Assembly (NCBI GenBank): GCA_903863195.1
Contig: CAIPAY010000043.1
Location: forward strand, 1-48,989
Source of the DNA: an uncultured Holophagaceae bacterium
Lineage (GTDB): Bacteria > Acidobacteriota > Holophagae > Holophagales > Holophagaceae
Direction of reading: 5' to 3'
Length of the DNA stretch: 48,989 nt
The position numbers and the translations under genes were made by a program. This document shows positions 2,441-19,318 of the stretch, piece by piece (within the stretch, counting starts at the first letter, position 1; each line of letters starts with the position of its first letter). A model generated the notes under the pieces. It was not told where the DNA came from. It searched no databases and worked only from the letters and a program-made list of their open reading frames with translations.

Positions 2441-2605
2441 CAAGTTGTCGGTTCGAGGCATCATGCCCAGAAAAGCCATGGCGACTGGAGGGCCAGCAAG
2501 GTTTCGGCATTCAAATGGGCGAATACCGCCCTCGGCAACCTGAAAGGAAACATTCGTGGCGTCTGCCACTGGATCGGCAACCAGCACCCTCCCGGTCCAC
2601 AGTGA
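2441..2605 (+). pseudogene. Remnant of an IS1595/ISXO2-like transposase
   Basis: One forward frame through this stretch reads ITQVVGSRHH, then SAFKWANTALGNLKG, then NIRGVCHW before a stop at 2603. In IS1595-family DDE/N transposases the C-terminal part reads like a histidine-rich linker, FKWVNTALGNIK, then an AI.GTYR-type segment followed by YLAEFEYRFNRR. The match covers roughly 50 residues. The rest of the transposase and the terminal inverted repeats are not visible, so the copy is dead. It lies between two orphan genes and marks past transposition here. Confidence 0.6.
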
Positions 2606-2788
2606 AGAAATCGAAAATCGATTGGGGGGTCCCCTCCACACCTGTCGCAAGTGGCGGACCGGGGTTAGTGTTGGCGGGTCATCACGCTGCCATATCTCCG
2701 AGTAGCGCATCTTGCTACTCTCTTTCGGCGTCCTCGTATTGCCAGCGGGGGACTGGGTATGGGATGAACTGCCTGCGAGGAGGGAGAA

Positions 2789-3562: not shown

Positions 3563-3699
3563 TAGTTCAGTCTGTACTTCCTCTGGTCCACTTTGGATTA
3601 TTCTTCCGCAAAAAAGAAGCTCCCTTCCATTAGCTATGAAGGCTTTGTTGTTTTTTGGCGGTTCGAGCATAGAGCGCCACCCACGGCCCCTGGCCTCGA

Positions 3700-6600
3700 T
3701 CAATCCCCCACCCTTACCCACTCCCCGCTCTTGATGGCCACCAACCACGCCTCCACAGGCTTGCCCTCTTGGGCGCGGATGGCCTGGGCGTAGCGAGTGA
3801 GCTGGGCCTGGTAGCTGGCCAGTTCTTCAGCACCGAATGCCTTCGAGTTCTTGAAGTCCAGGAGGTGGAGGCGGTCGTCTTCCCACACCACCAAGTCGGC
3901 GCGGCCCAGAGCGCCGCTGGCGGCAGCTCCCGCCAAGGGCAGCTCGGTGCGGCGACGCAGGTGCCGCCAGCCCCGGGTCTCGAACTGCTCCAGGAAGCGC
4001 TCGGCATGTTCCTGCACACCGGCCACCGCAGGGGCCGCCGCCAGGCAGGCTGCGAACCCTTCGGGGTCCTCCCAGCGAACCAGCAGGTCCCGCAGGAAGG
4101 CATGGACCAGCTCTCCTTCCTGGCGAGCCTTGGCACGGGCCTCCGTCGGCAGGGCTGCGTGAACATCGCGGGTGGCATCCTCCGGGGCTAGGGTCGGCCG
4201 GAGTGCGGGCGCCGCCCAGGCAGGGGCCTCCACCGTCGGGAGCGGCGCAGGTGCGGGCGGCTCGTCCAGCTGCAGCAGTTCGGGGTGGGCCGCCACCAGG
4301 TGCTGGCCCCAGTGGGCCCAGGTCTTGGCCTCCGCTGCATCCTTGGGCTCCTTCGGCTCCTGCAGCAGCAGGCAGAGGCGGCCCTTGGCCCGGGTGAGGG
4401 CCACGTAGAGCAGATTGAGATCGTCCCGGCGCTGGCGCGCCTCGATGAGCGGCTTCAGGTCCCGGTAGGCCCGGCCGGGATGTTTGCCAAGCCTCCAGGC
4501 CAGTAGGAGGGCGCCCCCCGCCGGGCTGGTGCGTAGCTCACCCTTGCTGAAGGGCCTCGGGTGGGCGTGCAGCAGCGGCAGGATGACGTCGTCGTATTCC
4601 AGGCCCTTGCTGGCATGGACCGTCTGGATGAGGAGGTCCGCATCGTCGGCGGAGGCCGGCAGGTCGCCACGCTCCATCCCGCTGCGCTCGTCCTCCAGGG
4701 CCGCATAGGCTACGGAGGAACTGGCGGGTAGGTCCAGCAGCATGCCCAGGAGGGCCGCCAGATTGCGCCGGGCCCGCAGGGGTTCCATGGTCCCGTGGGT
4801 GTGCAGGGCGGCGATGCCGCGCAACAGAGAGCCCTCGTTCAGCAGGCGCCCGACCAGCTCCTGGGCGGACACCTCGCGGAGGCCCCGCAGCCACCGCACC
4901 GCATCGCGCTGCGCCTCGGGGAAGGCCTCGGGATCCAGCTGGCCCAGGCCGGGCAGGCCGGGTCGGCCCTCCCGGGACAGGGCCAGGCGGGTGAGATCGC
5001 CATCGGTCAGGCCCACAATCTGGCGCAGCAGGGCCACGCAGGGCCGCGGCCGCTCGGGGTGGGCCACAGCCTCCAGGGCCGCCAGCACCAGGCGCACGCC
5101 GGGGCTATCCCAGAAGCCCTCCTTGGCTACCACGTAGGGCTGGATGCCTTGGCGCTTCAGGCGCTGCAGCAGGGCCGGCAGCTTGGTGCGCTGTTTCAGG
5201 AGCAGGGTACGACGGCGGGGGCCTGCCTTGGCCGGTTCGCCCAGGCACTGCCGCCAGCCCTCCTCGCGGGCAAGGCCCGAGATCCAGCCGGACAGGGCGG
5301 AGAGGTCCGCCCGGGAGGATGGTGCCGATGTTCGCACCAGGCCGACGGGCAGCGCGTCTGGCGCCATGGCCTCCTGCGCCCCATCCAGGCTGTCCGTACC
5401 CGGCGCGAGCTGTGGCCAGACTTCTTCCACGTAGCGGTTGGCCAGGGCCACCACCTGGGGTGTCGAACGGAAGTTGAAGGGCAGGCGGAAGGCCCGGTCT
5501 CCCGCCGCCTTCAGATGGCCACCCAGGAGGCCGGGGTCGCCACCGCGGAAGCCGTAGATGGCCTGCTTGACGTCGCCCACCCGGACCATCTGCGCCGCAC
5601 CGAGGGCCGCGAGGAAGGCGTCCTGGGAGGGTGAGGTGTCCTGGTACTCGTCCACTAGCAGCAGCCGGGGCGGGACGCCCTCGAGGCGGCCCCCATCCAG
5701 GCTGTGCAGGGCCGTGCGCACCAAGTCGCCAAAGGTGGCCAGACCCTGCTGGGCCTTCTGGGCCTCGAAGCGGTTAAGGGCGTCCACCAGAAGACAGCGG
5801 AGCCAGGCTTCCAGGGCATCCACCACGGGCTCGAAGGTGGTCATGGCCACCCTCAGCGGATCGCTGTAGTAGCCCTTGGAGGCATCCACCCGGCGGTCCT
5901 GGCCCTCGGCCCAGCGCAGGCGCGTGGCCAGGTCCGCCCCGGCGGCGGGCACGGGCAGGATGGAAGAAGCCTTGAAGTGCCGCCTCTGGGCGCTGGACGG
6001 ATCGAGACCCAGCATGGGATTGGCGGCGAACGGCGCCAGGGCCGCCTCGGCGGTGGCGAGGGCCGCCAGCAGGGCGGCTCGGACGGGAGCGGCGTTCTCG
6101 GGCTGCAGGTGACCCATGGCATCGCGGTGGTTGTCGTGCCCCTGGGATAGGTCCTCCCAGTTGCGTTCGGCCCAGGTGAGCAGCAGGCGAGCCGGCACAT
6201 GGTCGGGGTCGGTGTCAGGCAGGGTGAGGGCCTCTCGGACGGTCTGGCGGAGCAGCCGCAGCAAGGCGGGATGGGCCACGTCCCGGATGGTCTCGGGCGC
6301 GCCAGCGCCCTGCCCCAGGACTCGCATGGCCAAACTATGGATGGTCGATACCTGCAGCAGCTCGGCCTCTCGCCGGATGCGGCGCCAGAAGGCCCGCGCC
6401 CGCTCAGCCGATGCCGTCCAGGAGGCCGCAGCCCAGTGACCCGCGGCCTGTGCCACTTCCCCGGCGGATTTGGTCGGCCGCTCGCCCAGGGGCAGGCCCT
6501 TCAGGAAGGCCTCCATGGCCGCGGGGTCTGCAGTCTGCAGGAGCGGCAGAAAGGCTTTCCAGGCCGGTGCATCCAGTGCGGTCAGCAGATCCAGGGGGCG

Positions 6601-6798
6601 GAGCAGGCGCTCGCGCAGGTCGGCGGCCGCCGCTTCGCTGAAGGTGGTGGCCAGGATCTCGAAGGGGCGGAGGTCCTCCCGGCCGAGGTTGGCGGTGACC
6701 AGCACGGTGAGTGTGAAGGTCTTGCCAGAACCAGCGCTGGCGCTGACTACCAAGGACTGGGTCAGGAGGCTGGCATCGCTGAGGTCGAGGTCCCGCAT
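3700..6798 (-). CDS. addA: AddA/RecB-like UvrD helicase-nuclease
   Basis: This is a 1032-residue superfamily 1A helicase fused to a RecB-type nuclease, the ATP-dependent double-strand-break end-resection subunit. Motif I is ASAGSGKT near residue 20, the Walker B/motif II is LLLVDEYQDTSP near 380, and motif III is VGDVKQAIYGFRGGDP near 413. Motif V is TVHASKGLEYDD near 730 and motif VI is LLYVALTRAKGR near 800. The C-terminal PD-(D/E)XK nuclease shows GRADLVVW then LLDFKNSK near 970, supplying D and the DxK pair. The start overlaps the stop of the upstream addB-like gene by one base (TGATG), so the two are translationally coupled. It is somewhat shorter than classical AddA (about 1200). Composition is GC-rich and like the right-hand chromosomal genes. 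AddA rather than RecB is favoured by the AddB-like partner and the absence of recC/recD. Confidence 0.85.
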   Translation of the reverse strand: MRDLDLSDASLLTQSLVVSASAGSGKTFTLTVLVTANLGREDLRPFEILATTFSEAAAADLRERLLRPLDLLTALDAPAWKAFLPLLQTADPAAMEAFLKGLPLGERPTKSAGEVAQAAGHWAAASWTASAERARAFWRRIRREAELLQVSTIHSLAMRVLGQGAGAPETIRDVAHPALLRLLRQTVREALTLPDTDPDHVPARLLLTWAERNWEDLSQGHDNHRDAMGHLQPENAAPVRAALLAALATAEAALAPFAANPMLGLDPSSAQRRHFKASSILPVPAAGADLATRLRWAEGQDRRVDASKGYYSDPLRVAMTTFEPVVDALEAWLRCLLVDALNRFEAQKAQQGLATFGDLVRTALHSLDGGRLEGVPPRLLLVDEYQDTSPSQDAFLAALGAAQMVRVGDVKQAIYGFRGGDPGLLGGHLKAAGDRAFRLPFNFRSTPQVVALANRYVEEVWPQLAPGTDSLDGAQEAMAPDALPVGLVRTSAPSSRADLSALSGWISGLAREEGWRQCLGEPAKAGPRRRTLLLKQRTKLPALLQRLKRQGIQPYVVAKEGFWDSPGVRLVLAALEAVAHPERPRPCVALLRQIVGLTDGDLTRLALSREGRPGLPGLGQLDPEAFPEAQRDAVRWLRGLREVSAQELVGRLLNEGSLLRGIAALHTHGTMEPLRARRNLAALLGMLLDLPASSSVAYAALEDERSGMERGDLPASADDADLLIQTVHASKGLEYDDVILPLLHAHPRPFSKGELRTSPAGGALLLAWRLGKHPGRAYRDLKPLIEARQRRDDLNLLYVALTRAKGRLCLLLQEPKEPKDAAEAKTWAHWGQHLVAAHPELLQLDEPPAPAPLPTVEAPAWAAPALRPTLAPEDATRDVHAALPTEARAKARQEGELVHAFLRDLLVRWEDPEGFAACLAAAPAVAGVQEHAERFLEQFETRGWRHLRRRTELPLAGAAASGALGRADLVVWEDDRLHLLDFKNSKAFGAEELASYQAQLTRYAQAIRAQEGKPVEAWLVAIKSGEWVRVGD

Positions 6799-9749
6799 CA
6801 GTCGCCCTCCTCATCGCTGTCCACGGTGACATCCACCGGGCGACCGCAGATGGCACTCAGCTCGCACCAACTGCAGTGTTCGCCGGGCGTGGGCGGAAAG
6901 TCCCCCGTGTCCAGGCGCGCGTCGAAGCGAGCCAGATTCTGCAGCAGGCAGTCGCGCCACGCGCCCGGCTCTCCAGGCACCGCCGCCAGGGTGGTCAGGT
7001 GCTTGGTGAAGGGCTCCGGTGCCTCCTCGCGCAGGGGGAGCAGGGCGGCGGTGGCGACGTCTCCCGGGTACGCCGCTTCAGCGATGAGCATGTAGAGAGG
7101 CGTCTGGAGGTGCGATGCAAAGGGTGCGCCCTGCTCGGCGTAGGCGTCGAGGCTGGATTTCTTGGAGGTCTTGTAGTCCGTCACCCGCAGAAAGGTCAGG
7201 CCCTCCTCGTGCTCCCAGCGTTCGATGCGGTCGAGCTTGCCACTCACAGGGAAGGCCCGCCCATCCGGCAGGATCATGTCCACGGGGCCCAGCTCCCCTT
7301 CCAGGGCGACCAGGGTGCGGGTCCAGCCCTCCTGCAGGGGTAGGGGTTTGGGTTTTTTGCCGTTGGGGAGCGTCAGGCGCTCGGGATAGAGGAAGGTCAG
7401 CTCGGCGTCCGTGGGCGCCGACGCCGCCGCATCCAGCAGCAGCGCTGCCGCCAGATTGGGCAGCAGGGACTCAACCTCGAGCACCACCTGGGGCCACTGC
7501 TCCTGGGGAATGTTCTTGAGCCCTGCCAGCCAGTCTTCACGGTTGGCCTCCCAGAGGCCCCGAAGGCTGAGGAGCAGGGCTTCGGGATTGAGCTCTCCGC
7601 CCAGGTCGCCAAGGAAGGCGGCGGGCCAGTCCCGGAGCCCCGCATGGGGCAGGAGACTGGCCTCCATGACGTGGTGGACCAGGGTGCCCACGGCCATGCG
7701 GAGCCGGCTTGCGGCGTCATCGCTGGTGAGGCGCCAGACCCGCTCCGCCAGGGACCGGAAGGGGCACTTCGCCAGGCTCTCCAGGGCCGTGGGGCTGGCC
7801 CCGGGCTGGCCCTTGAGCCAGGCCGCGCGAACCCCCGGAACCAGATCCGCTACCGGGGCGGGGGTGGTCAGGGCCTCGGCCTCGGGCCGGGCCATGGCAG
7901 CCTGGCTGCGAGCCTCGGCGGCGGGATCCTGCTCGTGGCCCTCCCACAGCCAGCGGAGGCGGCTGTGCACCCGGGTGGTCGGGGCAACCCAAGTGGCCGC
8001 CCCTTCCAGGGCATTCCAGAACGGGCCCTGAGCCTTCATGCGACCTTCCTCGTCCTGGGCCGGGCTGAGCACCACCAGGCGCTCCCGGGTCATGGCGAGA
8101 ACCTTGTTGAAGGCGTAGGCCTCCCGCTGGAAGGCGCGGGGAATCTGGTCGCCGTGCTCGCTGCGGGGCAGCCAGAAGCGCTGAAGGGCGAGAGGAAAGA
8201 CCACATCGCCCGCCGCCACCGTGGCTTGTACTAGGGCCTGATTGACGGCCGCCTTGCGGTCCCAATCAAGGTCGGGGTTTTCGGGTGCGCGACTGGGCCA
8301 GGCCCCTTCAGAAAGATCCAGGATCAGCGTGGCCCGAGAGCCCGACCACTCCTCCAGGAGAGTGTCTGGCGTCACCAGGCGCAGGCCCTCCGGTGCGCGC
8401 GCCACGCGGCTGCTGCGGGCGGCCTCGAGGAAGGCCTCCAGGGCGGTGAGCATTTCGGCGAAGGTCCAGACATCACCGGCCCAGGCCTCCTTGAGCAGGC
8501 CCAGCGGCGCGAAGAAGTCATCCGGGTCCATGGGCAGGCGCAGGGTCCCGGCCAGAGCCTCGAGGCGTGCGGCCCAGTCCCGGGCGGGAAGGGTGCGCTG
8601 GCGCAGAGCGTCGAGCTCCTGCCAGACGGCGGTGACGCCAGGGCGGGCCCAGTCGTGCAAGTGCATGAAGCTGCTGGTGAAGGCCCGGGGTCCGGTCTGG
8701 TCGGCCACTGCCAGGAGGTCGGCCCAGCGCCGCAGGTCATCACGGTGGGAGGCCCGTAGGCCCGCCGAGACTGCGCAGGGATCCAGGCGCAGCAGGCCCA
8801 TGAGCAGGGTCCAAAGGGGACTCCAAGCTTCGCTGGCAAGGAGTGGCAGCAGGCCCCCCCGCACCTGGAGGGGGATGCCTTCCGCCGCCAGAAGGGGAGC
8901 CAGGAAGGGGCCCACCTTCTGGGGCTCGGGATGAATGAGCGTGATCTCAGCTGGCGTGAAGCCTTCATCCAGCCAGATGCAGACCTGCTCCACCGCGTGG
9001 CGCAGCAGATCCACCGGTCCATCCACCAGGCCGCGCTGGAAGATCTCGCCGTGGGTCTCGAGCGCCAGGGTTCCCTCGAAGAGCCCAGCCAGCTCAGGGC
9101 TCCAGGGGGCGTCGCCCCAGCCTAGGGGTTCCGTGAGGTCCAATTCGTTGGGGAGGCTCTGGCCGTGCTGCTCCAGACCGTCGAGGAACCACTCCACCAG
9201 GGGCTGGGAGCTACCGAAGAGCCCCGAGCTGCCGTCGCCTTTGCGGGTGGCGAGGGCGAAGGTGGCCCCGCCCAGCTCGGGCACGCAGGCCAACGCCCGC
9301 AGGCGGGCCGGACTGAGGTCGCGCAGGCCGGCGAGGATAGGTCCGTCCTCGGGGGTGCGCTCGATCCAGAGGCCCCGCCCGCCCTGCAGCTGCAGGTCCA
9401 CGGCCCGCCAGAGGGCCTGGTCGGGTTCCAGGTAGCCCGCCCGCTCCACCTCGGCAAGGTAGGCCTCCAAGTGGGCCACGACGCTGACCAAGCTGTGGGG
9501 TGACCGGGGGCTACCCAGGTCCAGGCCGTGGCTCTGGAGGGCCCGGACCGCGGCGGGCAGGAGGCCCTGGGCCAGGAGTTCCTGGCAGGCCCCAGACCTG
9601 GCCTTCAGAGCATCCAGACTCGGCGCCGGCCAGCCACTGGCCTTGGCCAGACGGCGGGCCACCCGCAGGTGCAGCATCATGCCGAAGGCCCCCGGTACCG
9701 GAGACCTGGCATCGTCCAACAGCACACCGTCAAAGGGGTCGTAGCTCAT
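6798..9749 (-). CDS. addB: AddB-like PD-(D/E)XK nuclease subunit
   Basis: The 983-residue partner of the adjacent helicase has a helicase-like N-terminal part without a usable Walker A and a C-terminal RecB-family nuclease. The nuclease motif is visible as VSGKLDRIERW followed by LRVTDYKTSKKS near residue 850. AddB iron-sulfur cysteines are recognisable: one in KCPFRSLAERVW near 661 and the trio CSWCELSAIC (C-x2-C-x5-C) near 958, which in AddB staple the nuclease domain. I chose the ATG at 9749, preceded by an AGGCAGG-like site, because the in-frame extension upstream to 9902 is low-complexity. Expected role: complex with AddA, degrading DNA ends until a Chi-like site and loading RecA. The pair lacks other recombination genes nearby. 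Confidence 0.82.
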   Translation of the reverse strand: MSYDPFDGVLLDDARSPVPGAFGMMLHLRVARRLAKASGWPAPSLDALKARSGACQELLAQGLLPAAVRALQSHGLDLGSPRSPHSLVSVVAHLEAYLAEVERAGYLEPDQALWRAVDLQLQGGRGLWIERTPEDGPILAGLRDLSPARLRALACVPELGGATFALATRKGDGSSGLFGSSQPLVEWFLDGLEQHGQSLPNELDLTEPLGWGDAPWSPELAGLFEGTLALETHGEIFQRGLVDGPVDLLRHAVEQVCIWLDEGFTPAEITLIHPEPQKVGPFLAPLLAAEGIPLQVRGGLLPLLASEAWSPLWTLLMGLLRLDPCAVSAGLRASHRDDLRRWADLLAVADQTGPRAFTSSFMHLHDWARPGVTAVWQELDALRQRTLPARDWAARLEALAGTLRLPMDPDDFFAPLGLLKEAWAGDVWTFAEMLTALEAFLEAARSSRVARAPEGLRLVTPDTLLEEWSGSRATLILDLSEGAWPSRAPENPDLDWDRKAAVNQALVQATVAAGDVVFPLALQRFWLPRSEHGDQIPRAFQREAYAFNKVLAMTRERLVVLSPAQDEEGRMKAQGPFWNALEGAATWVAPTTRVHSRLRWLWEGHEQDPAAEARSQAAMARPEAEALTTPAPVADLVPGVRAAWLKGQPGASPTALESLAKCPFRSLAERVWRLTSDDAASRLRMAVGTLVHHVMEASLLPHAGLRDWPAAFLGDLGGELNPEALLLSLRGLWEANREDWLAGLKNIPQEQWPQVVLEVESLLPNLAAALLLDAAASAPTDAELTFLYPERLTLPNGKKPKPLPLQEGWTRTLVALEGELGPVDMILPDGRAFPVSGKLDRIERWEHEEGLTFLRVTDYKTSKKSSLDAYAEQGAPFASHLQTPLYMLIAEAAYPGDVATAALLPLREEAPEPFTKHLTTLAAVPGEPGAWRDCLLQNLARFDARLDTGDFPPTPGEHCSWCELSAICGRPVDVTVDSDEEGD

Positions 9750-10401
9750 GCCTGCCTTCTCGCGCTTCAGTCTGCCAGACCATCCTGGCAGATGGCCCGG
9801 GGTTCCGGGTCCCGGGGAAGAGGCCGAAGCCTCAACATAAAGGTTCAACCCCAGAGTAGGCATTCGGAGTGGACAATTTTTGTCCTCTGGGTCGGTGGGC
9901 ACTTGGACGGCAGGGGTGCCTCAGGGAACGCAAAGAAGATACCTCAGCATGATGCTGCTGATCGCTTTCTGCGGTGAGGTGTGGGAAACGCACAGCGTTT
10001 TCCAAGGGGTTGTGGTCAGGTTGAGGACCCAGAGGGCGGGCCATCAGCCCGTTGCCGCTAGGCAATCCGCAGGCTGTCCATGGCCCCGGCGGCTCTCCGC
10101 AGCGGGTGGGTCGGAGCGATAACTCAGGCCACAACCTGCCTCAAAATCATTGGCGCGTTCCGAATCGGGAGGGCGAATGGCCCGTCGAATCGGTCGGTCG
10201 AATGTCCCGTCGAATCGGTCGGTCGAATGCCCCGTCGAATCGGTCGGTCGAATGCCCCGTCGAATCAGTCGGTCGAATGTCCCGTCGAATCGGTCGGTCA
10301 AGTGTGGCGAAGGCTTATTTTTGAGCGCCGGGAAAAATTCCCCAGGGTAGATCCTCCGGGCATCCCCTGTTTTGAAGGCAGGGAGATGGTTGGAGTTCTC
10401 G
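9750..10401 (+). other. Gene-poor stretch with tandem repeats, upstream of addB
   Basis: No believable gene is present. The left half should hold the addB-addA promoter; I could not pick it with confidence. The right half holds the 25-bp tandem array described separately. Open frames across the array in several phases are by-products of a stop-free repeat unit whose length is not a multiple of three. Confidence 0.6.
10181..10304 (+). repeat. Five tandem copies of a 25-bp direct repeat
   Basis: The unit CCCGTCGAATCGGTCGGTCG followed by AATGY begins at 10181, 10206, 10231, 10256 and 10281, giving five head-to-tail copies with only one or two substitutions each; the last copy degenerates at its end. 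A partial diverged unit sits just before (about 10162-10180). There are no spacers, so this is not a CRISPR. The unit contains inner TCGA and CGGTCG repeats. It lies between the addB promoter region and the first mobilisation-type gene. Iteron-like protein binding or a replication-slippage array are both possible. Confidence 0.9.
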
Positions 10402-10797
10402 ATGAAGAGTTATGTTGTGCCTGACATGCCCAAGAGGAGTCCGGACGCCCTAGAAACCTTGGCGAGTTCACTGGGCCTGAAGAACTCCGCAGCCCTGCGA
10501 GCGGTGGTGGAGCAGTTGGCAACCGCCCAGTTGCTGCTCTTTGCCGAAATTCTGCAACCCCTGGTAGCGCGGCAGGTCGGCAGGCCATCGGTACCCTCAT
10601 CCGCCAAGAAGACCGAAACGGGACCTCTTCTTGTCAGCATCTCCGAGACCATGCGATTGCTCTCGATGTCACGGACCTCCGTGTATTTCCTGATGTCCTC
10701 AGGTCGCTTGACCTGGGTCAAACCGGGCGCTCACCGGAGGATCCGGATGGACTCCATCCACCGGATGCTGATGGAAGGGGACGCTCGCGCGGGGTAA
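10402..10797 (+). CDS. Excisionase-like helix-turn-helix protein
   Basis: This is a 131-residue DNA-binding protein. The C-terminal half is a MerR/excisionase-type winged helix (HTH_17): VSISETMRLLSMSRTSVYF, then GRLTWVKPGAHRRI with the usual basic wing, then a final helix. The N-terminal half (residues 1-60) is helical (DALETLASSLGLKNSAALRAV) and may dimerise. I chose the ATG at 10402 because a GGAG site lies nine bases upstream; a TTG at 10372 would add ten residues. Such proteins serve as recombination directionality factors or transcription factors of integrative elements, which fits the integrase 7 kb downstream. Confidence 0.68.
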   Translation: MKSYVVPDMPKRSPDALETLASSLGLKNSAALRAVVEQLATAQLLLFAEILQPLVARQVGRPSVPSSAKKTETGPLLVSISETMRLLSMSRTSVYFLMSSGRLTWVKPGAHRRIRMDSIHRMLMEGDARAG

Positions 10798-11277
10798 CCC
10801 TTCGCCTCTCCAAGACAATCGGGAACCTCCAAACATCATGAAACAGGAAAGCACCTTCACTTCTCCTAGTCGAGAGCCGGGTGGAACGGCGGTTGAGGAG
10901 GCCTCCATCAAGGTTCTCCTATAGGAGATGCCTGCGGCGATCTAGCGGTCCAGCCGTTCCTGCCGACATGAACGGCCTCTCGGGCCTCGAACGTGCCGTG
11001 TTCTAGGGTCCGTCCTTGGCGGCGAAGCGGTGGGTGGATGGTCTATTGCACACGCATGAGATCGCCGAAGAGGGTCAGCAGAGGGGAGGGCTGCGGCTTC
11101 CTCAGCCACGCAGGGCTTACTTCGGTCGCAGTGTCCACGCCCAGGCAAGGCTGCCCAAGCCGATACGAGCACAAAAAGGGGGCAGAACAGAGCAAGCGGT
11201 GCGATTTGGCCCGCAGCAATTTCGGCAGCCCTGAAGCTTTAGGTGAACTGGGGGTTCCCCCTTAACCGGAGCTCAGC
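10798..11277 (+). other. 480-bp stretch without a supported gene
   Basis: Only short open frames with no ribosome site and implausible composition occur here. The ribosome-binding region for the next gene (ACCGGAGCTC before 11278) is at its end. It probably holds the promoter of the operon beginning at 11278; no clear -35/-10 pair could be picked. Confidence 0.5.
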
Positions 11278-11946
11278 ATGACTGCCCGTCCGCCCTTCCC
11301 TGCCAACTTCCCCACATCGCCAGATGCACAGCTTTACACCACCAGGCGGATTCACGAGGAGCTTTCGCAGTTGTTGGCTCCAGCCCAACAGCTGGTCGCC
11401 GAATCGGCGGCCTCAACTATCGCGCCGAGGGAGTCTCCTCGCGAGGTGCCGCCGCCCGAGCGCCAAGGAGCGGATGAACCCAGGGCCCTCGATAACTGCC
11501 GAAGCTGCCTCCAGTTCGGTGCCTCTCGCGGAACCCTGTACTCGCTGATGAAGGCCGGCCTGCTCCGGTTCGTCATCGTAGGGCATCGCCGGGAAATCCA
11601 GCAAACCGATACCGAGCGCTTTCTCGGTGATGACCCCCGGGGCATAGGCAAAGGAGAGAGTATGCCGTTTTCAGCGCCGTCTTCCTACTACCCCGTCATA
11701 ACTGGGAGCCGCACCCTGGGATGGACGACACTGCGTTTCGTAGACCATCCCCGCGCAGACCGAACAAGGATGAGCAAGGCGAATCCGCAGGTTCGGTCAA
11801 GGTCCGGGGATGGTTCACGACCTCGCAGCACATCTCCCCGCAAGGGGGGTGTGCGTAGGGTGCTTACTCCTTCTCACCACCTCGTTACTCCTTCTCACCA
11901 CCTCGGCCCGGGCATCCAGCGCGGTCCCATGCCGGAGCAGAAATGA
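11278..11946 (+). CDS. Helix-turn-helix protein, first gene of mobilisation operon
   Basis: A 222-residue frame with a CGGAGC site upstream. Residues about 80-118 form an excisionase-type helix-turn-helix (FGASRGTLYSLMKAGLLRF, VGHRREIQQTDTERFL). The N-terminal part resembles that of the upstream HTH protein in layout: a helical region (RRIHEELSQLLAPAQQLV) then a Pro-rich linker. The last 100 residues are low-complexity and include the duplicated TPSHHLV segment encoded by a 21-bp direct repeat, so the natural C-terminus may be extended by decay. Its stop overlaps the next start (ATGA), indicating coupling. Confidence 0.55.
   Translation: MTARPPFPANFPTSPDAQLYTTRRIHEELSQLLAPAQQLVAESAASTIAPRESPREVPPPERQGADEPRALDNCRSCLQFGASRGTLYSLMKAGLLRFVIVGHRREIQQTDTERFLGDDPRGIGKGESMPFSAPSSYYPVITGSRTLGWTTLRFVDHPRADRTRMSKANPQVRSRSGDGSRPRSTSPRKGGVRRVLTPSHHLVTPSHHLGPGIQRGPMPEQK
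11864..11905 (+). repeat. Two tandem copies of a 21-bp direct repeat
   Basis: The 21-base unit begins TTACTCCTTCTCACCACC and ends TCG; copies occupy 11864-11884 and 11885-11905 with no mismatch. The unit is a multiple of three, so the reading frame of the HTH gene is kept, giving a doubled TPSHHLV segment. It lies about 300 bases before the relaxase gene, a position where transfer-origin repeats are sometimes found, but it could equally be a simple slippage duplication. Confidence 0.85.
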
Positions 11947-12200
11947 GCGAGCACAAACTGAAACGGAGTCCCAGCGAGGTCTTGGTGCACCGGATCGAGG
12001 CCGCATTGATTGGCAGGGCGTCCGGAGTCGTGAGGGTCGATGCTCGGCTGACAGGGTCTGTGGCGGACGCCTGGCGGGCACTGCGCGATGCCGCCCAAGG
12101 ACTCACCTTAGACGATTCGGCCCTACTGTCTGCGCTCATCCTGCATGGGTCAAGTAGTGTCCGAGCCACCCTCAGGAAAATCCACCTGGAAAGGAGCTGA
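11943..12200 (+). CDS. Small putative ribbon-helix-helix accessory protein
   Basis: This 85-residue protein starts with an ATGA overlap on the upstream stop and ends one base before the relaxase ATG. A strand-like segment (GVVRVDARL) followed by two predicted helices (SVADAWRALRDAAQ; LDDSALLSALILHG) fits the ribbon-helix-helix outline of small relaxosome accessory proteins that bind the transfer origin. That assignment rests on size, secondary-structure pattern and position directly before the relaxase, not on a recognised motif. Confidence 0.5.
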   Translation: MSEHKLKRSPSEVLVHRIEAALIGRASGVVRVDARLTGSVADAWRALRDAAQGLTLDDSALLSALILHGSSSVRATLRKIHLERS

Positions 12201-12201
12201 G

Positions 12202-14085
12202 ATGGACGTTCCCATGCGATATCACGACGGGCCCGGGCCCCTTTCACCTGAGGGCGCAGTCCAATACCTAGGGACGCATCTTCAGTCCGCGACTGAGGCT
12301 GGAAACCTAGCGCACCTGCCGGGCTATCTGACGCGGGGAGGACTGATTGCGCCAGTTGTGATGGACGCGGATCTTTGGCAGATGGTGGGGTGGGACGGCC
12401 ATGGGATTCCCCCCGATCGACTCATCCGAAACCTCTGTCAGGGTTGCAATCTCGAGGGCGATCGGCTGACGGGCAGCCGAAGCCTTTTCCAAGCGCCCCT
12501 CGAAATTGTCATTCCCTTCCCCTCCGAGCTGTCTGAGGCCATGCATTCTGACCCTGAAGCAGCGCGCGCGACCCTCAGAAAGGCTTTGGATACTACCATT
12601 TCGGAGCTGGAAAGGGCGGCGGTCAGGAAAAGATCCGGGAAAGGGCGCAAGGCCCAACCCGATTGGGCGCCAGCCAGGGTGCTTGCCCTGGGTTATCTCC
12701 ATGCCGAAAATCGAGCGAAGGAGAACCACCTGCATGCCCATTGTGAGATATTTCGGCCTGCCCTAGATGAGGAGGGGAAGTGGCGCACCCTTGACAATGG
12801 ACGCCACGTCTCACGGTTTTCGATTCCCGGGGGCGTCCGAGAACTGGTCACGACTGCAATCGTCATGGAAGCTGCTAGGTGGGGCTACCGAGTGGAGATC
12901 CTTCCGGGGAAGGCCAAGGGTCCAGGCCCACACGGGGCGCGGGTGACCTCGCCAGATGGACACGTTTTCGAGAGGGGGTCGGTGCGCCGGGAACGAAGGC
13001 TCACCATCCTCGCCGCCCAAGCCATGGTCAAGGCCTGTGGCGCAACTCCACTCACTCCGAAGGAGGTGGAACTGGTCAGGAAAGAGACAGGTCGCTTCCC
13101 TCACGAGCTGAAAGGGATTCGACTCATGGCTCACCTTGAAAAAAAGCTGTCGGCTTTGGGCTTCCTTGATGATTCCGGTCGTATCGGGGAATCCCGCCAG
13201 GTCATGGCGGCCCTGTCCAAAATGGAAGAGGCCATGGCCGAGGCTCAAGTTTTCTTGGTGGATGTCCCAATGTCGCGGGCCGATGAGAGCGCGCAAATTG
13301 TCAAGTCGAAGCGACAGGCCCTGGTCGCGCAGGTCCCAGAATTGAGGGCGAACACCCATCAGGCGCGCATCCGCTGGACAGGTGCCTACGACTCGTTGCT
13401 TGAACTTGTTGCGACGCACCCGGAAGGCCTGCGAACCGACAACCTTAACAAGAACTCCAGAGACAATCTCTCCAAGCTGAAGAGGGCAGGCATTCTCCTC
13501 GGTGAGAAAGTCGGTGGCCGAATGACATACCGCCTCGGACTCCCAGGAGAGGAGCGCTTAGCCCGTAGTCGGGATGAACAGAAGGAGGCGGAAAAGTCGG
13601 TCCTGAAAATGGTCCATCTTTCCATGGCCGGGGCCTCGTCCCCGTCCCAGGTCCGCGGCCGCCTCGAGGCCATAGGCATTCAGACAAACCCGAAGGAGGG
13701 CCGCTTTGAATTGGGAGCGGCGGGGCGGACAGTCAGAGAGCCCGACCTCATCGCTTTGACGGGAATCCGGCCCATGACGCCGGTCTCGCCGGATCTTCCG
13801 TGGTGGGAAAGCTGGTGGGCTCGCCGGCACGAACTGCCGACGATCTTGGCCCGCGCCATCCTTCGCCCAGCCGAGGTGCTTGCCAGATGGGGGGAGTCGT
13901 TGGGGCAGCAGGCCGCTGAGGTGATTGCCGTCCGGGTGCGGGACCTTAAAGGTCGCAGGGCCAGTGAAACTGCCGCTAGGAGGACAGCCGCGGTCGATCG
14001 AGATCAGCCGGGTGCTATCACCCGGCAGCAGGACCGAATCCCCACAGTCCCCGTAGGAGGTCCGAGCCATGGACGCAGAATCTAA
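12202..14085 (+). CDS. TrwC/MobF-like relaxase domain protein
   Basis: This 627-residue protein has a strong AAGGAG site before the ATG at 12202. The metal-binding histidine cluster of relaxases is visible as H176-x-H178-x-H180 in ENHLHAHCEIF, followed by the TrwC-family hallmark ALDEEGKWRTLDNG. Upstream stretches (YLTRGGLIAP, GDRLTGSRSLFQAPLEIVIPF) align with the region between the N-terminal tyrosines and the fold core. N-terminal tyrosines near residues 22 and 42 are candidates for the nicking residue. There is no C-terminal helicase with Walker motifs, unlike TrwC/TraI (about 1000 residues or more), so this is a relaxase-only protein as in mobilisable elements. The C-terminal 250 residues look like a winged-helix region (LRTDNLNKNSRDNLSKLKRAG) plus a basic tail. 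Expected role: nicking at an origin of transfer. Neighbouring conjugation pore genes are absent. Confidence 0.65.
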   Translation: MDVPMRYHDGPGPLSPEGAVQYLGTHLQSATEAGNLAHLPGYLTRGGLIAPVVMDADLWQMVGWDGHGIPPDRLIRNLCQGCNLEGDRLTGSRSLFQAPLEIVIPFPSELSEAMHSDPEAARATLRKALDTTISELERAAVRKRSGKGRKAQPDWAPARVLALGYLHAENRAKENHLHAHCEIFRPALDEEGKWRTLDNGRHVSRFSIPGGVRELVTTAIVMEAARWGYRVEILPGKAKGPGPHGARVTSPDGHVFERGSVRRERRLTILAAQAMVKACGATPLTPKEVELVRKETGRFPHELKGIRLMAHLEKKLSALGFLDDSGRIGESRQVMAALSKMEEAMAEAQVFLVDVPMSRADESAQIVKSKRQALVAQVPELRANTHQARIRWTGAYDSLLELVATHPEGLRTDNLNKNSRDNLSKLKRAGILLGEKVGGRMTYRLGLPGEERLARSRDEQKEAEKSVLKMVHLSMAGASSPSQVRGRLEAIGIQTNPKEGRFELGAAGRTVREPDLIALTGIRPMTPVSPDLPWWESWWARRHELPTILARAILRPAEVLARWGESLGQQAAEVIAVRVRDLKGRRASETAARRTAAVDRDQPGAITRQQDRIPTVPVGGPSHGRRI

Positions 14086-14833
14086 CCCGCCCACCTGGGC
14101 CAGCGGACAGCAAGAAGGTGTCAGGGAGCATCTCCCCCCGTGGCTTGGTTCCCAGGGAGACACGTGGGAAACCTACCTGAGGGCGATGGTGCCGAGCCCA
14201 CCGCGGTGGCGGTCTATCCACCCCGGCGACATTGGGTGGAGACCAATTTTGGGCGACCTTGAGACGGCAATTCTCTCCAGGTTCGATGTAACCCCTTATA
14301 ACTATGGGCGCCCAGATTTGAGCGGATATTCGCAGCAAGATCTTGAGAACCTTCTGCGCTCGATGTTGGAAGTGGAGACCCCCGAGGGCTACCGGGCTGT
14401 GCTTTGTCTTGCAAGCGACTCAGATTCACACACCCTGGCCCTTTTCGCTCTCAACGCTAGCGTTTCCGTTTCTCTCCAGAAATGGGATACGAACACGACG
14501 CGAAACCCCCACCTGACTCGAATTACCCCTCTTCAGCCCTCAGCCGACCTTGTCTACTGGGTAGCTTTCATCCAAGCCGCGGAAGGCTCCCAGCTCGTAC
14601 TGCTCACCACCCCGAGGAAGGACAGCGTCAACCTCGCATTCGTGGGCCCGATGCAAATCTGGGCTTACGGAATGGTCACGACGGTGGTTCTGCCTGTCGC
14701 AGCTGCCCGTTTGGACTCTAGCTGGGAGGGACTACCCTATGTGCTCGCTTACTGCACACGGCATGAGCTTGTGTATCAGGCTTTCCATGGTTACTCCGAG
14801 GGATCCCCTCCCGCCAGGAGCGACTTCGACTAA
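14069..14833 (+). CDS. Hypothetical protein downstream of relaxase
   Basis: This 254-residue protein starts at an ATG with a GGAGG site and overlaps the relaxase end by 17 bases, so it is cotranscribed. It has a Trp/Pro-rich N-terminus (PPWLGSQGDTWETYLRAM) and a central beta-rich segment (YRAVLCLASDSDSHTLALFALNA could form sheets), then LVYWVAFIQ and MVTTVVLPVAAARL. There is no signal peptide. I do not recognise the family. Its place suggests a role tied to the mobile element, possibly regulation or immunity. Confidence 0.55.
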   Translation: MDAESNPPTWASGQQEGVREHLPPWLGSQGDTWETYLRAMVPSPPRWRSIHPGDIGWRPILGDLETAILSRFDVTPYNYGRPDLSGYSQQDLENLLRSMLEVETPEGYRAVLCLASDSDSHTLALFALNASVSVSLQKWDTNTTRNPHLTRITPLQPSADLVYWVAFIQAAEGSQLVLLTTPRKDSVNLAFVGPMQIWAYGMVTTVVLPVAAARLDSSWEGLPYVLAYCTRHELVYQAFHGYSEGSPPARSDFD

Positions 14834-14899
14834 GTGTTAGGCGAAATGTTCAGAACAACCAGCCCCGGCTGCCAGCTGGGCCACAAGCAAAGGTGAAAT

Positions 14900-15718
14900 A
14901 TGACTAGGCTGAACCCGATGAACCAACTTCAAATCCAAACGTCGAAGTATGCCAGCGGTGGCACGTTCGGCAGTAGTAATGCTGAGGGCTTGCCTTCCAC
15001 GCTATCGCCTTACGACACGCTACTCTCAGAGGCGCGTGTAATCAGCCAACAGATCAAGAGCGGATACTGCCCAGTGTGTGGAGTCCTGGCCTTCCTATAC
15101 GGCCCGCCCTTATCCGTGGCCTTCGGGCAGATGGCCATGGGGGTGACAAGCATGGTCTTAATGGCGATGGAGGATGGGTTTCGCTGCACCTTGTGTGACG
15201 TCGAAACCAATCCTGCTGCTCAAACGGCGGCGGTTGATTCGGCCTACATCAGCCATTTAATCGGAGAACCCAAGGCCCTCAAACAGTCCACGATAAACCA
15301 GAGGTTCTGGGCAGCCTCCTCAGAAAGAGATGAGGCGATCCGGAAGGCAATGGGAGAAAATCTCGAGGAGGAGTTGCGGAACCAACCCTCTGGCGGCATG
15401 CTTTGGCGGCCCCGGCAGGTGTTAGGGTGCGCAGACCTAGCGATGGCAGCAGAGGCCTGCAAAAAACGAATCGGTGACCACGCCTACGGTAGGCTTGATA
15501 TCGACTCCAGCTACGAACTCTTGGACACTGTCGGGATGTCTGAGGTTGTTCGCAGCATCCAGGCCGGGGAGTCGCGCCCAGACTGGAAGGGCCGCGAACG
15601 TTATTTCTTAACGCCCCTAGGCCTTCAACGTCTCCACCTTGAGTACCTTGCATTGATCAACCCCGGTCAAATCCCGGGTAAGTGCTTCCCCCTCGGACGC
15701 ACGCCCCCCCTAGCATGA
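14900..15718 (+). CDS. Hypothetical protein with paired CxxC motifs
   Basis: This 272-residue protein has an AAGGTGA site before the ATG. Two CxxC pairs (YCPVCGVL near 56 and FRCTLCDVE near 95) could form a zinc ribbon, separated by a hydrophobic segment (FGQMAMGVTSMVLMAM) that could be a buried helix or a membrane hairpin. The C-terminal part has GRERYFLTPLGLQRLHLEYLALI, which looks like a winged-helix tail. It is the last gene of the relaxase operon. The function is unknown; zinc-dependent DNA or protein binding is only inferred. Confidence 0.55.
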   Translation: MTRLNPMNQLQIQTSKYASGGTFGSSNAEGLPSTLSPYDTLLSEARVISQQIKSGYCPVCGVLAFLYGPPLSVAFGQMAMGVTSMVLMAMEDGFRCTLCDVETNPAAQTAAVDSAYISHLIGEPKALKQSTINQRFWAASSERDEAIRKAMGENLEEELRNQPSGGMLWRPRQVLGCADLAMAAEACKKRIGDHAYGRLDIDSSYELLDTVGMSEVVRSIQAGESRPDWKGRERYFLTPLGLQRLHLEYLALINPGQIPGKCFPLGRTPPLA

Positions 15719-16493
15719 GGATGGAGAGGAGGGGATAGGAGGGGGTGCCACACTTGTAATTTCATGCGTAGAATCAATCCAATCAATATCTACAAAAAGT
15801 CATGGCATTCTACAATTCAGGTTTCCTAATCGTGCGACACAATTCTCAGATTCAAATCCAGCCCCACCGCTGACCCCAACCGACTGCAAGCACGCGACGG
15901 TCCGGAAAACCGAAATCACTGAGTATTCAGAGATCCGGTGTAGTTGACCAGACCTAGGCGCATCCCCGAGCGGGCTCCTAAATGGCCAGGAATGCCCCCC
16001 GGTAGCAATCATCAAGGCCATGGAGGCCGTACTGCCTCTTTGAATGCTTGGTAGCACTGGACGCCGCCGGAACAGTTCCATGGTCAAGGCTATTCGACCG
16101 TGTCGGATTCGACCCGGCAATTGACCACCTGTTCGACTGTGTTCGACTCTCCAACTCGCCCGCATTCGATCGGAACCTGTCTGCTGGTCCTTCGCCCACC
16201 AGATCTGACAGTTCGCAATCGCCGAGGTGATCCAGAAGCCTGCAAAGACGTCTCAAATGGCATCTGGTTGGCGTCAACCAGAATTCACCCTTCTCCTTGT
16301 AATTGTCTCAGGCACTGGCCTTCTTGGTGAGCAGCCAAGCGCCGCCCTTCTAGGTCGCACCCAAATCCGGTCCTTGCCTTTGGGCGAGTCGAGGGTCTTG
16401 GGCACAGGGTCCACATTGATCTTCCAGTTTAAGGCCCGCTGTGATTGACGAATTTATAACAGCGCCCACCCGCTTGGTGCGCCCGTGCCTAGA
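15719..16493 (+). other. 775-bp stretch with no supported gene
   Basis: Short open frames occur on both strands but none has a ribosome site with plausible protein composition. Around 16092-16150 there are irregular repeats of a TTCGAC core (ATTCGACCG, GGATTCGACC, GTTCGACTG, GTTCGACTC). On the reverse strand these resemble the 25-bp repeat unit at 10.2 kb. The HNH gene ends just to the right. The stretch looks like decayed or regulatory mobile-element DNA. Confidence 0.5.
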
Positions 16494-17477
16494 TCACTCA
16501 TCTGCGCCAGAGGGGCGGTATGCCATTGCAAAATCAAGCAGGTCTCTGTTTATAGCCTCGTGGTGTGGCGCACAGTGCGCTTCACGATGGCAATTTGGAC
16601 AGAGAGCAACACAATTCCAGACACGGTCACTCGTTCCAACTCCAAGAATGTGGTGGACATCCAAGAATCCAGGGAAGTCCCTCGCTTGGCGGCATCCCCT
16701 TCTTTCACAGGTCCCATTAGACCGAAGAACGACTGCTTTGCGAACCCTAGGGTCCCTCGGGAAGCCAGATTTCATTTGCGTCATCCTGGCAGTCTCATCT
16801 CTCCCCAACGAATAAGGATCGAAGGAGCAATCATCGAATGAATCGTTGGTGGTGTCCGTTGAGTTGGTGATCCTGGGCGAGTCACATATGTCGATCACGC
16901 CAGACCAACCCCACAAGGCATCCGCAACCGCGTGGGCGTCTTGGCTGCGTTCGTCCTGAAGCCAAATGGTTGGGCTGGACCCGTTCATCGCATGGTTCTT
17001 CTTGATGCGCCCCATCTTCCCTTCACGGATAAGGCTTGCACTAACATCTCTCTGCCGCATCCAGATGGGCATCAGTTGGTCCCTGGGGATGAGCGCAGCG
17101 AATACGAACTGCGGATCCTCGTACTGAACGATGAGGGTATGGGTATTGCCTTCCCTGATGTCATGGTCCTTGATAAAACTGAGGGTGCCCTCCCAGTCCC
17201 CATCAACCAGATGCGCCCTGAGTTGGGCAGCAGCGTAGGTGCGTTCCCGATCATTTCCCTTTTGCCTCCGCCAGCACAAACGCACGCGCATCTTGATACG
17301 AGTTCCCTCTGGGGTCTCAGCGGAAATCGCTTGAGACACTGCTGTTCCAGAGACGGTTCTCTGGTCTTGCATAACTCTGTAGCCATGTTCCAAGAGAAAG
17401 GGCACCACTGCGTCTCGAGTTTCTGCCTCGGCCTCCAAGCTAGCTTGAGATCGGAATGCCCTTTTGATTTCGCTCAT
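16494..17477 (-). CDS. HNH endonuclease domain protein
   Basis: This 327-residue protein is preceded by an AGGTGA site. The C-terminal domain (about residues 245-310) is an HNH/McrA-like nuclease: a zinc pair in TCERRGC, the catalytic stretch LDVHHILGVG, then VWNCVALCPNCHREAH with the second zinc pair and last His. The N-terminal 200 residues are not recognised; they contain MRVRLCWRR and a strand-rich middle (HTLIVQYEDPQFVFAALIP), perhaps a DNA-recognition or nucleotide-sensing domain. No methyltransferase gene is adjacent. A modification-dependent restriction role, as for solitary McrA-type enzymes, is plausible. Position between the relaxase operon and the integrase is typical for element-borne defence. 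Confidence 0.72.
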   Translation of the reverse strand: MSEIKRAFRSQASLEAEAETRDAVVPFLLEHGYRVMQDQRTVSGTAVSQAISAETPEGTRIKMRVRLCWRRQKGNDRERTYAAAQLRAHLVDGDWEGTLSFIKDHDIREGNTHTLIVQYEDPQFVFAALIPRDQLMPIWMRQRDVSASLIREGKMGRIKKNHAMNGSSPTIWLQDERSQDAHAVADALWGWSGVIDICDSPRITNSTDTTNDSFDDCSFDPYSLGRDETARMTQMKSGFPRDPRVRKAVVLRSNGTCERRGCRQARDFPGFLDVHHILGVGTSDRVWNCVALCPNCHREAHCAPHHEAINRDLLDFAMAYRPSGADE

Positions 17478-17666
17478 GCGATCACCTGCGGAGTTTGGGA
17501 TTTCATTCCATGATGCCCTCGCTTCCCAGGTTCAGGTTGCAGGAAGGCTCCGGGGAATGTGTAGCGATCTCCAGCCAGGGGCCGAGGGCACGGAACGGAG
17601 CGCCGGTCCTCTGGGTTATGGCGGAGGTTGCAATGACCTTCGCTCATGGCAAGCAAAGCCAGAGCA

Positions 17667-19013
17667 TCACTTCCCGTTTCCCTGCTTGATGGCCAGCGTC
17701 TCCACGGGTGTCCCGTCGTGGATGCCCAGCTTGGGGGCCAGCGCCCGGATCGCGTCAGCCATGGCAGAAGGCGCCAGGTGGCCGTAGTGCTTCTCCACCA
17801 TCCGAGTATCCGAGTGCCCGAGCTGCGCGGCGACAAACGCAAGAGGCACCCCGTTGTTCACCAGGCCGGAGGCGTGGGTATGGCGCAATTCGTGGAACGT
17901 GAGGGTCGCGAGCTTGGCGGCCTCGCAGGCCTCCTTCATGCACCGGGCCGGTTCTGACTTGCGCCAGGGACGGTTCAACTTGGGGCTTGTCCAGTTCCGG
18001 GTTTCGTTGGACTCACGCAGGAACATGGGTTCGTCGGGGAGCCGTCCCGCTGTGAGGGCCTTGAAGTAGATCTGCCCTTCCTCCGTCAGCACCACATAGC
18101 GCGGGTGCGGGTTGTTCTTGGAGGGGGCGATGTAGATCTTTCCGTTCGGCGCGTTGAAGTCTGAGTTCACCAAGCGCGACAGCTCGCCGAAGCGCGCTCC
18201 CGTGAACAGCCCCCCCTGGACGAGGCGTCGGAAGTCTGGCGGGCAGACATTCACCAGCCGCTGGGCCTCCTCGGGTGTAAGGAACCGCTGCCGGGAGGCC
18301 GTGGTGCCTTCAAAGGGTTTCACTTCGCGCCAGGCTTCCGCGTTGGCCCGGGTCATGCCGCGATGCTTCACGAAGTTCAGGATGGCCTTCAGTGCGGCCA
18401 GGATGCGGTTGGCGGTGGCCCTGCGGGCGCGCTTCTGGTCATCGGTGACTGGAGCCGGCCTGGAGGCGGGTTGCTCGCCTTTCCTGGTGCGAACGCGGGC
18501 TGGAGCCTTGGCCAGCGCCGCGTGCCATTTCTCGATCTTCCATTGCGTGAGGTCGGCGACCTTGCAGGCGCCGAAGGCGGGAAGGATGTGGGCAGTGACA
18601 TTCAGTTTGGTGGAGGCGATGCTCTTCTTGCCGCGGCGCTCAGCGTCCTCGGCGTAGGCGATCCAGGCCTGCTCCACGGTGAGTGGGCCCAGCCGGTGCG
18701 GTTCTCCCGCGACCGCGGACTTCATCTCCTTGAACCAGTCGCGGGCCTTGTCCTGAGCCTGGTCGAAGGAAAGCACCGTGTCCTCGTTGGCCTCCAGGAA
18801 GTCATCGGCCGTGCCGAGGGCCTGCCTCAGGTACTTCTTCGTATTCATGTCCATGAACCTGGCGCTCCAGGTCCCGGAGGCTCCGCTCTTCGGCCGGTAG
18901 TAGCCGATCGACTGGCCGATCCCGATCGCCGTCCAGTGGGGGTCCTTCTGGGCGGTCAGCTTCAGCCGTTTGCTACGGTTCTCAAACTTGTTGACCTCTT
19001 TATTCCTGACCAT
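17667..19013 (-). CDS. Tyrosine site-specific integrase
   Basis: This 448-residue phage/island-type integrase has an arm-binding N-terminus (residues 1-110), a SAM-like core-binding domain and a C-terminal catalytic domain. Catalytic residues are visible: Arg in FTGARFGELSRL, His and Arg in TFHELRHTHASG, His in QLGHSDTRMV and the nucleophilic Tyr in EKHYGHL. I chose the ATG at 19013 since a GGAGG lies five bases before it; an ATG four codons upstream is the alternative. It is transcribed away from the tRNA-Glu fragment 140 bases to its right, the standard layout for an element integrated at a tRNA 3' end. It should catalyse integration and, with an excisionase such as the HTH proteins upstream, excision. 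Confidence 0.92.
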   Translation of the reverse strand: MVRNKEVNKFENRSKRLKLTAQKDPHWTAIGIGQSIGYYRPKSGASGTWSARFMDMNTKKYLRQALGTADDFLEANEDTVLSFDQAQDKARDWFKEMKSAVAGEPHRLGPLTVEQAWIAYAEDAERRGKKSIASTKLNVTAHILPAFGACKVADLTQWKIEKWHAALAKAPARVRTRKGEQPASRPAPVTDDQKRARRATANRILAALKAILNFVKHRGMTRANAEAWREVKPFEGTTASRQRFLTPEEAQRLVNVCPPDFRRLVQGGLFTGARFGELSRLVNSDFNAPNGKIYIAPSKNNPHPRYVVLTEEGQIYFKALTAGRLPDEPMFLRESNETRNWTSPKLNRPWRKSEPARCMKEACEAAKLATLTFHELRHTHASGLVNNGVPLAFVAAQLGHSDTRMVEKHYGHLAPSAMADAIRALAPKLGIHDGTPVETLAIKQGNGK

Positions 19014-19151
19014 TAGGTCCTCCATCCGTAATTTATCCGTATTTCACGTCCCCAAATGCCTCCGATCACCATGGGACACTATTTTTGTAACTCACGCAAT
19101 ATCTTATTTTTGAATCGTCCGGAACTGAACGTTTAAACAGTATTTAACAAT

Positions 19152-19195
19152 CTTTCACGGCGGTAACACGGGTTCAAATCCCGTTAGCCCTACCA
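19152..19195 (+). other. 3' fragment of tRNA-Glu: integrase attachment site
   Basis: The 44 bases from the anticodon loop to CCA match tRNA-Glu(UUC): CTTTCACGGCGGTAAC covers the anticodon TTC, the 3' anticodon stem and the variable loop. The T arm (ACGGGTTCAAATCCCGT) and the acceptor end TAGCCCTACCA follow. The 5' half (acceptor, D arm, 5' anticodon stem) is absent; the bases before it are AT-rich and unrelated. A break in the anticodon loop is a classic crossover point for tyrosine integrases. The intact gene should lie at the other end of the element, outside this window. Confidence 0.85.
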
Positions 19196-19197
19196 GA

Positions 19198-19237
19198 ACG
19201 AAAGAGGCGACCGCGCGTTGGCGGTCGCCTCTTTCGT
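19198..19237 (+). terminator. Hairpin terminator behind the tRNA-Glu fragment
   Basis: A perfect 17-bp stem (ACGAAAGAGGCGACCGC paired with its complement at 19221-19237) closes a GCGTTG loop. It begins three bases after CCA, so it is the original terminator of the tRNA-Glu gene and belongs to the chromosomal side of the junction. The T tract after the stem is short. Confidence 0.75.
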
Positions 19238-19318
19238 TTGGGTAGTAATGTGTGGAGCTGCGCTCCCACCTGTGTCCCGCGCTCCTCGCCGTGCTGAGGC
19301 GCCGCGGGGTGAGCCCAG

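Follow-up and report, generated by a model that had tools for sequence, protein, structure and literature searches.

The DNA analysed here (the window) is a 48,989-nucleotide stretch from an uncultured Holophagaceae bacterium, corresponding to the entire contig C43 of a 267-contig bin (G000). Its left 19 kb carry a series of cargo genes, followed by an integrase gene and the 3' part of a tRNA-Glu gene, as listed below by position and strand.

183-986, minus strand: exonuclease I, N-terminal part only (NCBIfam ExoI, 2.8e-104, profile positions 5-219 of 477)
2245-9940, no strand: block 99.5% identical to contig C44 of genome G023 (G023:C44), where a different integrase adjoins it
3700-6798, minus strand: addA-like gene, UvrD helicase plus PD-(D/E)XK nuclease (Pfam; best solved structure 3u44_A, 1.7e-26)
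6798-9902, minus strand: addB-like gene, nuclease subunit (PDDEXK_1, 2.4e-24; the real start is probably near 9749)
10372-10797, plus strand: HTH_17 protein (Pfam HTH_17, 2.9e-7), candidate excisionase or regulator
12145-14085, plus strand: MobF/TrwC-like relaxase of 646 aa with an HLHAH motif (Pfam TrwC, 5.9e-12; NCBIfam MobF, 3e-14, below cut-off)
16494-17477, minus strand: HNH-type nuclease-like protein, weakly similar to IscB and type IV restriction proteins
17667-19025, minus strand: tyrosine integrase of 452 aa (Pfam Phage_integrase, E = 1e-21), with relatives adjoining tRNA-Glu fragments in 13 other loci
19024-19044, plus strand: paired 11-bp tandem repeats ATCCGTAATTT/ATCCGTATTT at the integrase start, putative arm sites, matched once in the window and once in its own genome
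19152-19195, plus strand: attR core, the 3' 44 nt of tRNA-Glu(UUC)
19190-19245, plus strand: terminator hairpin 3' of the fragment, of the same flank type as in G062

The tRNA part had been noticed in a first-pass annotation of the sequence, and its description holds. Positions 19152-19198 agree in 47 of 47 bp with the 3' part of a tRNA-Glu(TTC) gene that is intact, 75 nt long, and located on another contig of the same bin (C22), and 44 bp of this match, 19152-19195, are tRNA proper. Because ARAGORN calls no tRNA at 19152-19195, we regard this sequence as a fragment. The spacer that separates it from the integrase gene, where a 5' half would be expected, is indeed AT-rich and bears no likeness to one, and the fragment does have its own terminator, a 25-bp inverted repeat (19190-19214/19221-19245, 92%). 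With up to three mismatches allowed, a search for the core pattern gives one match in the window and a match in 0 of 100 shuffles, in agreement with the earlier statement that positions 1-19150 hold no second copy. An Rfam search of positions 1-22000 gave zero matches. A fragment identical to the target tRNA gene thus lies at one end of the island, and 19152-19195 is, as judged from its sequence, the attR of a tRNA-Glu island, an object of an ordinary kind.

As assessed by eye, the neighbouring integrase keeps an R...HxxR...H...Y-type active site, the motif of tyrosine recombinases, and it is rightly described as a tyrosine integrase beside the fragment. We compared the locus with 47 Geothrix-group genomes, of which 41 match tRNA-Glu. 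Many combine an intact copy with a 3' fragment; the two share a strand and are in many cases 11-28 kb apart. On the intact side, tandem repeats are found ∼70 nt after the tRNA, with the same sequence as the repeats beside the integrase of that genome, and the window repeats occupy the same position as those of these paired elements. Among others, the end repeats are the following.

G045: ATCCGGCA
G044: ATACGGAAA
G053 and G020: TACTGCAA
G018: ATCCGAAA
G023: AGCGGGAAA

When the left and right ends of nine genomes were paired by genome, not by likeness, they shared 6-21 8-mers (mean 11.7), whereas mismatched ends shared 1.8 on average (p = 1e-5 by permutation); the G061 and G023 pairs span contigs, and G007 and G008, whose far ends are decayed, are not among the nine. 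By analogy with known integrases, the tandem repeats are probably arm-type sites. An intact tRNA with an attL at the other island end is seen in G018, G020, G045, G044, and G053. Empty and occupied versions of the site are represented by G007, with an intact tRNA followed by the flank, and G018, in which tRNA, a 19.2-kb element, and the fragment precede the same flank. Paired arm repeats hence provide a worked case of how to tell which island ends belong together, which helps to sort tandem islands in fragmented genomes. In G053 and G008, the tRNA T-arm end recurs as an inverted copy behind the terminator of the tRNA-Glu fragment, giving a longer hairpin.

Recombinational repair has RecBCD and AddAB as its entry enzymes, which also destroy phage DNA. 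The window addA product combines a UvrD-type helicase with a PD-(D/E)XK nuclease, as expected of AddA, and its best solved structure, 3u44_A, is an ATP-dependent helicase/nuclease subunit A. AddB has a PD-(D/E)XK nuclease and a four-cysteine Fe-S site. In an alignment of seven AddB proteins (G015 and G012 left out), Cys713, Cys1010, Cys1013, and Cys1019 are invariant in all seven, and the DYK nuclease motif is conserved; a sequence search of window AddB against solved structures returned zero relatives. Because both products score below the curated NCBIfam cut-offs (105.7 vs 707.65 bits for AddA and 22.2 vs 903.7 bits for AddB), we refer to the enzyme as AddAB-type, of a divergent group. The GC content of addAB is about 70%, vs mostly 46-62% in the rest of the left region, and its composition is chromosome-like, as originally described.

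Other cargo has relatives in islands of the same kind. The two best relatives of the relaxase-like protein (56 and 54%) are in tRNA-Glu islands of G004 and G003, and a full-length relative of exonuclease I (511 aa) lies in the G004 island, beside helicases resembling anti-phage proteins. That island (G004:C13, 1409-11226) encodes two large IGHMBP2/PLuB/ProA-like helicases along with the full exonuclease I. The truncated exonuclease I gene of the window adjoins a sequence (1-231) that is multi-copy and found at contig ends in several genomes, which is probably why the contig ends where it does; contig C8 of the same bin equals 138-231 at 100%. A repeat of ∼215 bp (9947-10162), with many copies in relatives and often at contig ends, is directly followed by six tandem copies of a 25-bp unit (10136-10329). 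A 93-nt tRNA-Arg(ccg) called by ARAGORN at 9770-9862 overlaps the addB ORF and is probably a false call.

RecBCD and AddAB replace each other over evolution, and we determined which of them each Geothrix-group genome holds. AddA is present in 29 of the 47 genomes (AddB in 27) and RecC in 15, none has both, and three have neither (G004, G062, and G021, which are 95%, 97%, and ∼80% complete, respectively). Many of the compared genomes are metagenome bins, and the G000 bin is itself mixed (C22). A PF12705 search of eight genomes including these three found none in G062 and G021 and a weak match in the G004 island helicase, which we rejected as AddA, the protein being IGHMBP2/PLuB-like. The RecC of G043, G056, and G020, labelled "other RecBCD", is 35-37% identical to that of G008. 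Mutual exclusion of the two enzymes is known on a broad scale, one paper giving only 16 genomes with both (PMC6452273).

The repair genes were then located relative to tRNA-Glu. Among 16 contigs of >100 kb holding both, the enzyme lies within 20 kb of the tRNA or fragment in 11 (G041, G042, G047, G046, G002, G045, G007, G015, G008, G018, and G006) and farther away in G053 (34 kb), G013 (40 kb), G043 (46 kb), G056 (99 kb), and G020 (128 kb). RecC is located 4.7 kb beyond the tRNA in G008 and 9 kb beyond it in G006; in G018, the fragment precedes it by 2.8 kb. Downstream genes for a lantibiotic dehydratase and a histidine kinase are common to AddAB-B, AddAB-A, and RecBCD genomes. The RecBCD genes of G056 and G020, at about 99 and 128 kb from tRNA-Glu, count against an exchange at this site, and so does the AddAB of G001, which is one of the genomes (with G019, G048, and others) in which repair enzyme and tRNA-Glu are on separate contigs.

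Replacement of one enzyme by the other is seen between close relatives. G046 (AddAB) and G018 (RecBCD) are 97.1% identical through the tRNA, have no identity over 6.5 vs 30.9 kb, and are then 93.4% identical for 11.8 kb. The left breakpoint of this swap is just beyond the tRNA end; at its right end an att site is not recognisable, which counts against site-specific delivery. G046 vs G018 and G006 are very close relatives with AddAB and RecBCD, respectively, and would make good experimental pairs. To see how far type follows descent, we placed four labels (AddAB-A, AddAB-B, RecBCD like G008, and other RecBCD) on a core tree of 21 of the 47 genomes, hand-picked for contiguity and known type. At least seven changes are needed vs a shuffled mean of 9.3, and as few were obtained in 1 of 200 shuffles. 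The labels are thus clustered, and type is therefore partly inherited, with much vertical descent.

Because the stretch between flanks that are ∼97% identical is occupied by AddAB in some relatives and by RecBCD in others, we take the tRNA-Glu site to be an integration hotspot for exchange of the RecBCD/AddAB-type enzyme; the exchange would be performed by integrase or by homologous recombination. It could be that islands and AddAB/RecBCD are mere neighbours, the chromosomal repair genes being replaced by homologous recombination via the flanks while elements are drawn by tRNA-Glu. Flank identities of 93-97% permit such recombination, and in six genomes (G002, G003, G041, G042, G046, and G047) an intact tRNA-Glu is separated from the addB start by 263-390 bp that hold no integrase. 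Moreover, in G044 and G045 the integrase element lies between tRNA and addB, with addB within about 0.5 kb after the fragment and hence on the chromosomal side, which counts against delivery by that element. We nevertheless consider mere neighbourhood rather unlikely, in view of repair genes that do lie between att sites. In G022, a single 22-kb contig contains intact tRNA, addB-addA, integrase, and fragment, with addAB inside the integrase-fragment boundary. Three further genomes have a decayed tRNA core directly behind addA or recD: in G041 and G007 it lies 27-28 bp from the addA stop, and in G008 it lies 97 bp past recD (0 of 200 shuffles as good in each case). These four genomes (G022, G041, G007, and G008) have att-bounded repair genes on one contig, from intact tRNA to 3' fragment or decayed core. 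The G052 contig starts with a tRNA core about 95 bp from the addA end. Against site-specific delivery, in 22 of 26 tested regions just after addA or recD there is no strong core, G014 and G044 among them having weak ones (0.015 and 0.04 of shuffles, respectively). Mere neighbourhood also fits poorly with the position of the left breakpoint in the G046/G018 swap, with the inverted orientation of addAB relative to tRNA-Glu in G000, G023, and G015, and with arm-like repeats of the CGCTCC kind, which lie between tRNA and addB in G002, G041, G047, and G046 and so are present behind the tRNA in the "native" layout as well. The G062 integrase carries repeats of the same kind (GCGCTCCAAA), which makes a trans-mobilized addAB cassette conceivable, although this is speculation. 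Because of the four att-bounded cases, we favour site-specific delivery over its main rival, homologous replacement via the flanks.

Delivery to this site would also apply to the window itself. Its block at 2245-9940 differs from G023:C44 by 36 mismatches (99.5% identity), and the neighbouring integrases are 66% identical as proteins. Identities of core (a 2.4-kb region for G000 and its relatives) and AddA are 95.1 and 100% for G000-G023, vs 92.1 and 66.7% for G000-G003 and 93.0 and 65.8% for G000-G022; the comparison covered 23 of the 29 AddA-positive genomes, leaving out G005, G011, G054, G057, G059, and G060 (partial or not included). The AddA proteins of G003 and G022 resemble the AddAB of species that are less closely related, and identities inside this group are mostly 84-92%. 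Elsewhere, G041-G007 are 90.8% identical in core and 91.4% in AddA, whereas G015-G007 are 91.0 and 68.5%, G015 being ∼91% identical in core and 68-69% in AddA to both G007 and G041. Since the window addAB is 99.5% identical to the G023 block, yet 66-67% identical in AddA to G003 and G022 at 92-93% core identity, it is, on these comparisons, a horizontally exchanged version and not that of its close sister species. The earlier suggestion that addAB is chromosomal, made on composition, is left without support by the different AddAB of these sister species. To regard addAB as a vertically inherited chromosomal gene in an ordinary tRNA-Glu island, one would have to take the near-identity with G023 for a binning or assembly artefact. 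Its chromosome-like GC and the fact that both G000 and G023 are metagenome bins speak for this, but we find it very improbable: the surroundings of G023:C44 and window differ and there are 36 mismatches within the shared block, so the two are different molecules, and similar splits are seen in G015 vs G041 and G007 and in G046 vs G018.

As for the left end of the island, contig C171 in this bin breaks off 12 nt into the tRNA core, and joined to the window core it gives a complete 75-nt tRNA-Glu(TTC) as assessed by ARAGORN. Together with fragment and integrase, this join supports the original reading of the locus as the attR, or right end, of a tRNA-Glu island. Over 7.4 kb, C171 and G023 are 96.4% identical, and the value for C171 and G003 is 95.6%, whereas C22 is ∼87% identical to both genomes; the window right flank is ∼93% identical to G023 and G003. 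On account of these values, C22 most likely belongs to a second, co-binned species, and C171 is likely to be the partner of the window, carrying the true 5' half of the tRNA. The chromosome upstream of the tRNA is 87% identical between C22 and C171; the G000 bin carries the tRNA-Lys/tRNA-Glu region twice in these contigs and probably mixes two species. G062 has a similar terminator behind its fragment, and then the downstream genes that the window has; this supports the view that in close relatives the window right flank is a long-standing neighbour of tRNA-Glu. The C22 repeats are of the ATCCGGAAA type, as at the G004 and G003:C155 ends, and the window attR type is ATCCGTA. A pattern search of its own genome assembly for an attL with the window arm type returned the attR copy only, so that a position of the window AddAB between attL and attR of one element is putative. 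The search proposed at first for an intact tRNA-Glu with the same last 44 bases did find one, on C22, but this hit is misleading in view of its 87% flank and different repeats. An island running from C22 (18305-1) through the left 19 kb of the window (≥37 kb) has in its favour that C22, a contig of this bin, holds an intact tRNA-Glu identical to the window at all 47 bp, but it is hardly credible and C22 was rejected as the left end, as C171 holds the same region, single in most genomes, with 96 vs 87% identity to the nearest relatives, and the C22 arm repeats share zero 8-mers with those of the window and some with the G004 and G003:C155 ends. The assembly lacks the contig with the left end, and the island measures at least 19 kb if it is a single element.

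Taken together, these findings make it probable that window positions 1-19195 are the right part of an island and that the tRNA-Glu locus is a site of exchange of AddAB-A, AddAB-B, and RecBCD. The window segment would form the right portion of an element, or of several in tandem, that integrates and is probably mobilizable, and its tyrosine integrase would recombine within the anticodon-loop-to-3'-end part of tRNA-Glu(UUC). Integration would restore an intact tRNA on the left, with its 5' half on C171, and leave the old 3' end and terminator at 19152-19245. Tandem repeats specific to the element, at both of its ends, would serve the integrase as arm sites, which would let several elements share one core, and the element-borne AddAB-type helicase-nuclease would stand in for the resident version. 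In the genus, the locus would consist of tRNA-Glu, variable cargo, and the lantibiotic-dehydratase and histidine-kinase genes, AddAB-A, AddAB-B, or RecBCD being exchanged there; the integrase or its relatives would move the repair cassette, and the resident copy would be lost by excision or recombination. More tentatively, tRNA-Glu(UUC) might be a general docking site in Geothrix, where RecBCD/AddAB-type cassettes are delivered and replaced by site-specific integration, with family-specific arm repeats by which elements of a common core could be distinguished.

To our knowledge, no vehicle has been described for the replacement of RecBCD and AddAB by one another, and none is evident in the literature we looked at. 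If our proposal is true, the docking site would be the vehicle for their known shuffling. An attachment site at which much of a genus keeps and exchanges its RecBCD/AddAB-type enzyme is uncommon, and since species that are ∼90-97% identical hold different versions at one integrase target, the exchange is testable in cultured Geothrix strains.

Several known systems share features with this locus. Like tRNA-targeting islands and integrative mobilizable elements, it has an integrase by a tRNA 3' fragment, an intact tRNA opposite, and a relaxase-like gene, and tandem arrays at one tRNA are likewise found in such islands. It differs from them in its cargo, the main helicase-nuclease of the cell for double-strand breaks, and in that several AddAB-bearing segments are without an integrase of their own. 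The latter recalls CIME-type elements, which are att-flanked and integrase-less, as is the G041 AddAB, which has an intact tRNA-Glu and its arm repeats on one side and a decayed 3' core on the other; for the G041 segment, unlike these elements, mobilization in trans is putative. Finally, Cromie (2009) reportedly described a phylogenetic shuffling of RecBCD and AddAB, in which, as here, the complexes are mutually exclusive and pass from one lineage to another. The exchange we describe differs in that it is seen at one locus, next to integrase attachment sites, and between species that are about 90-97% identical in nucleotide sequence.
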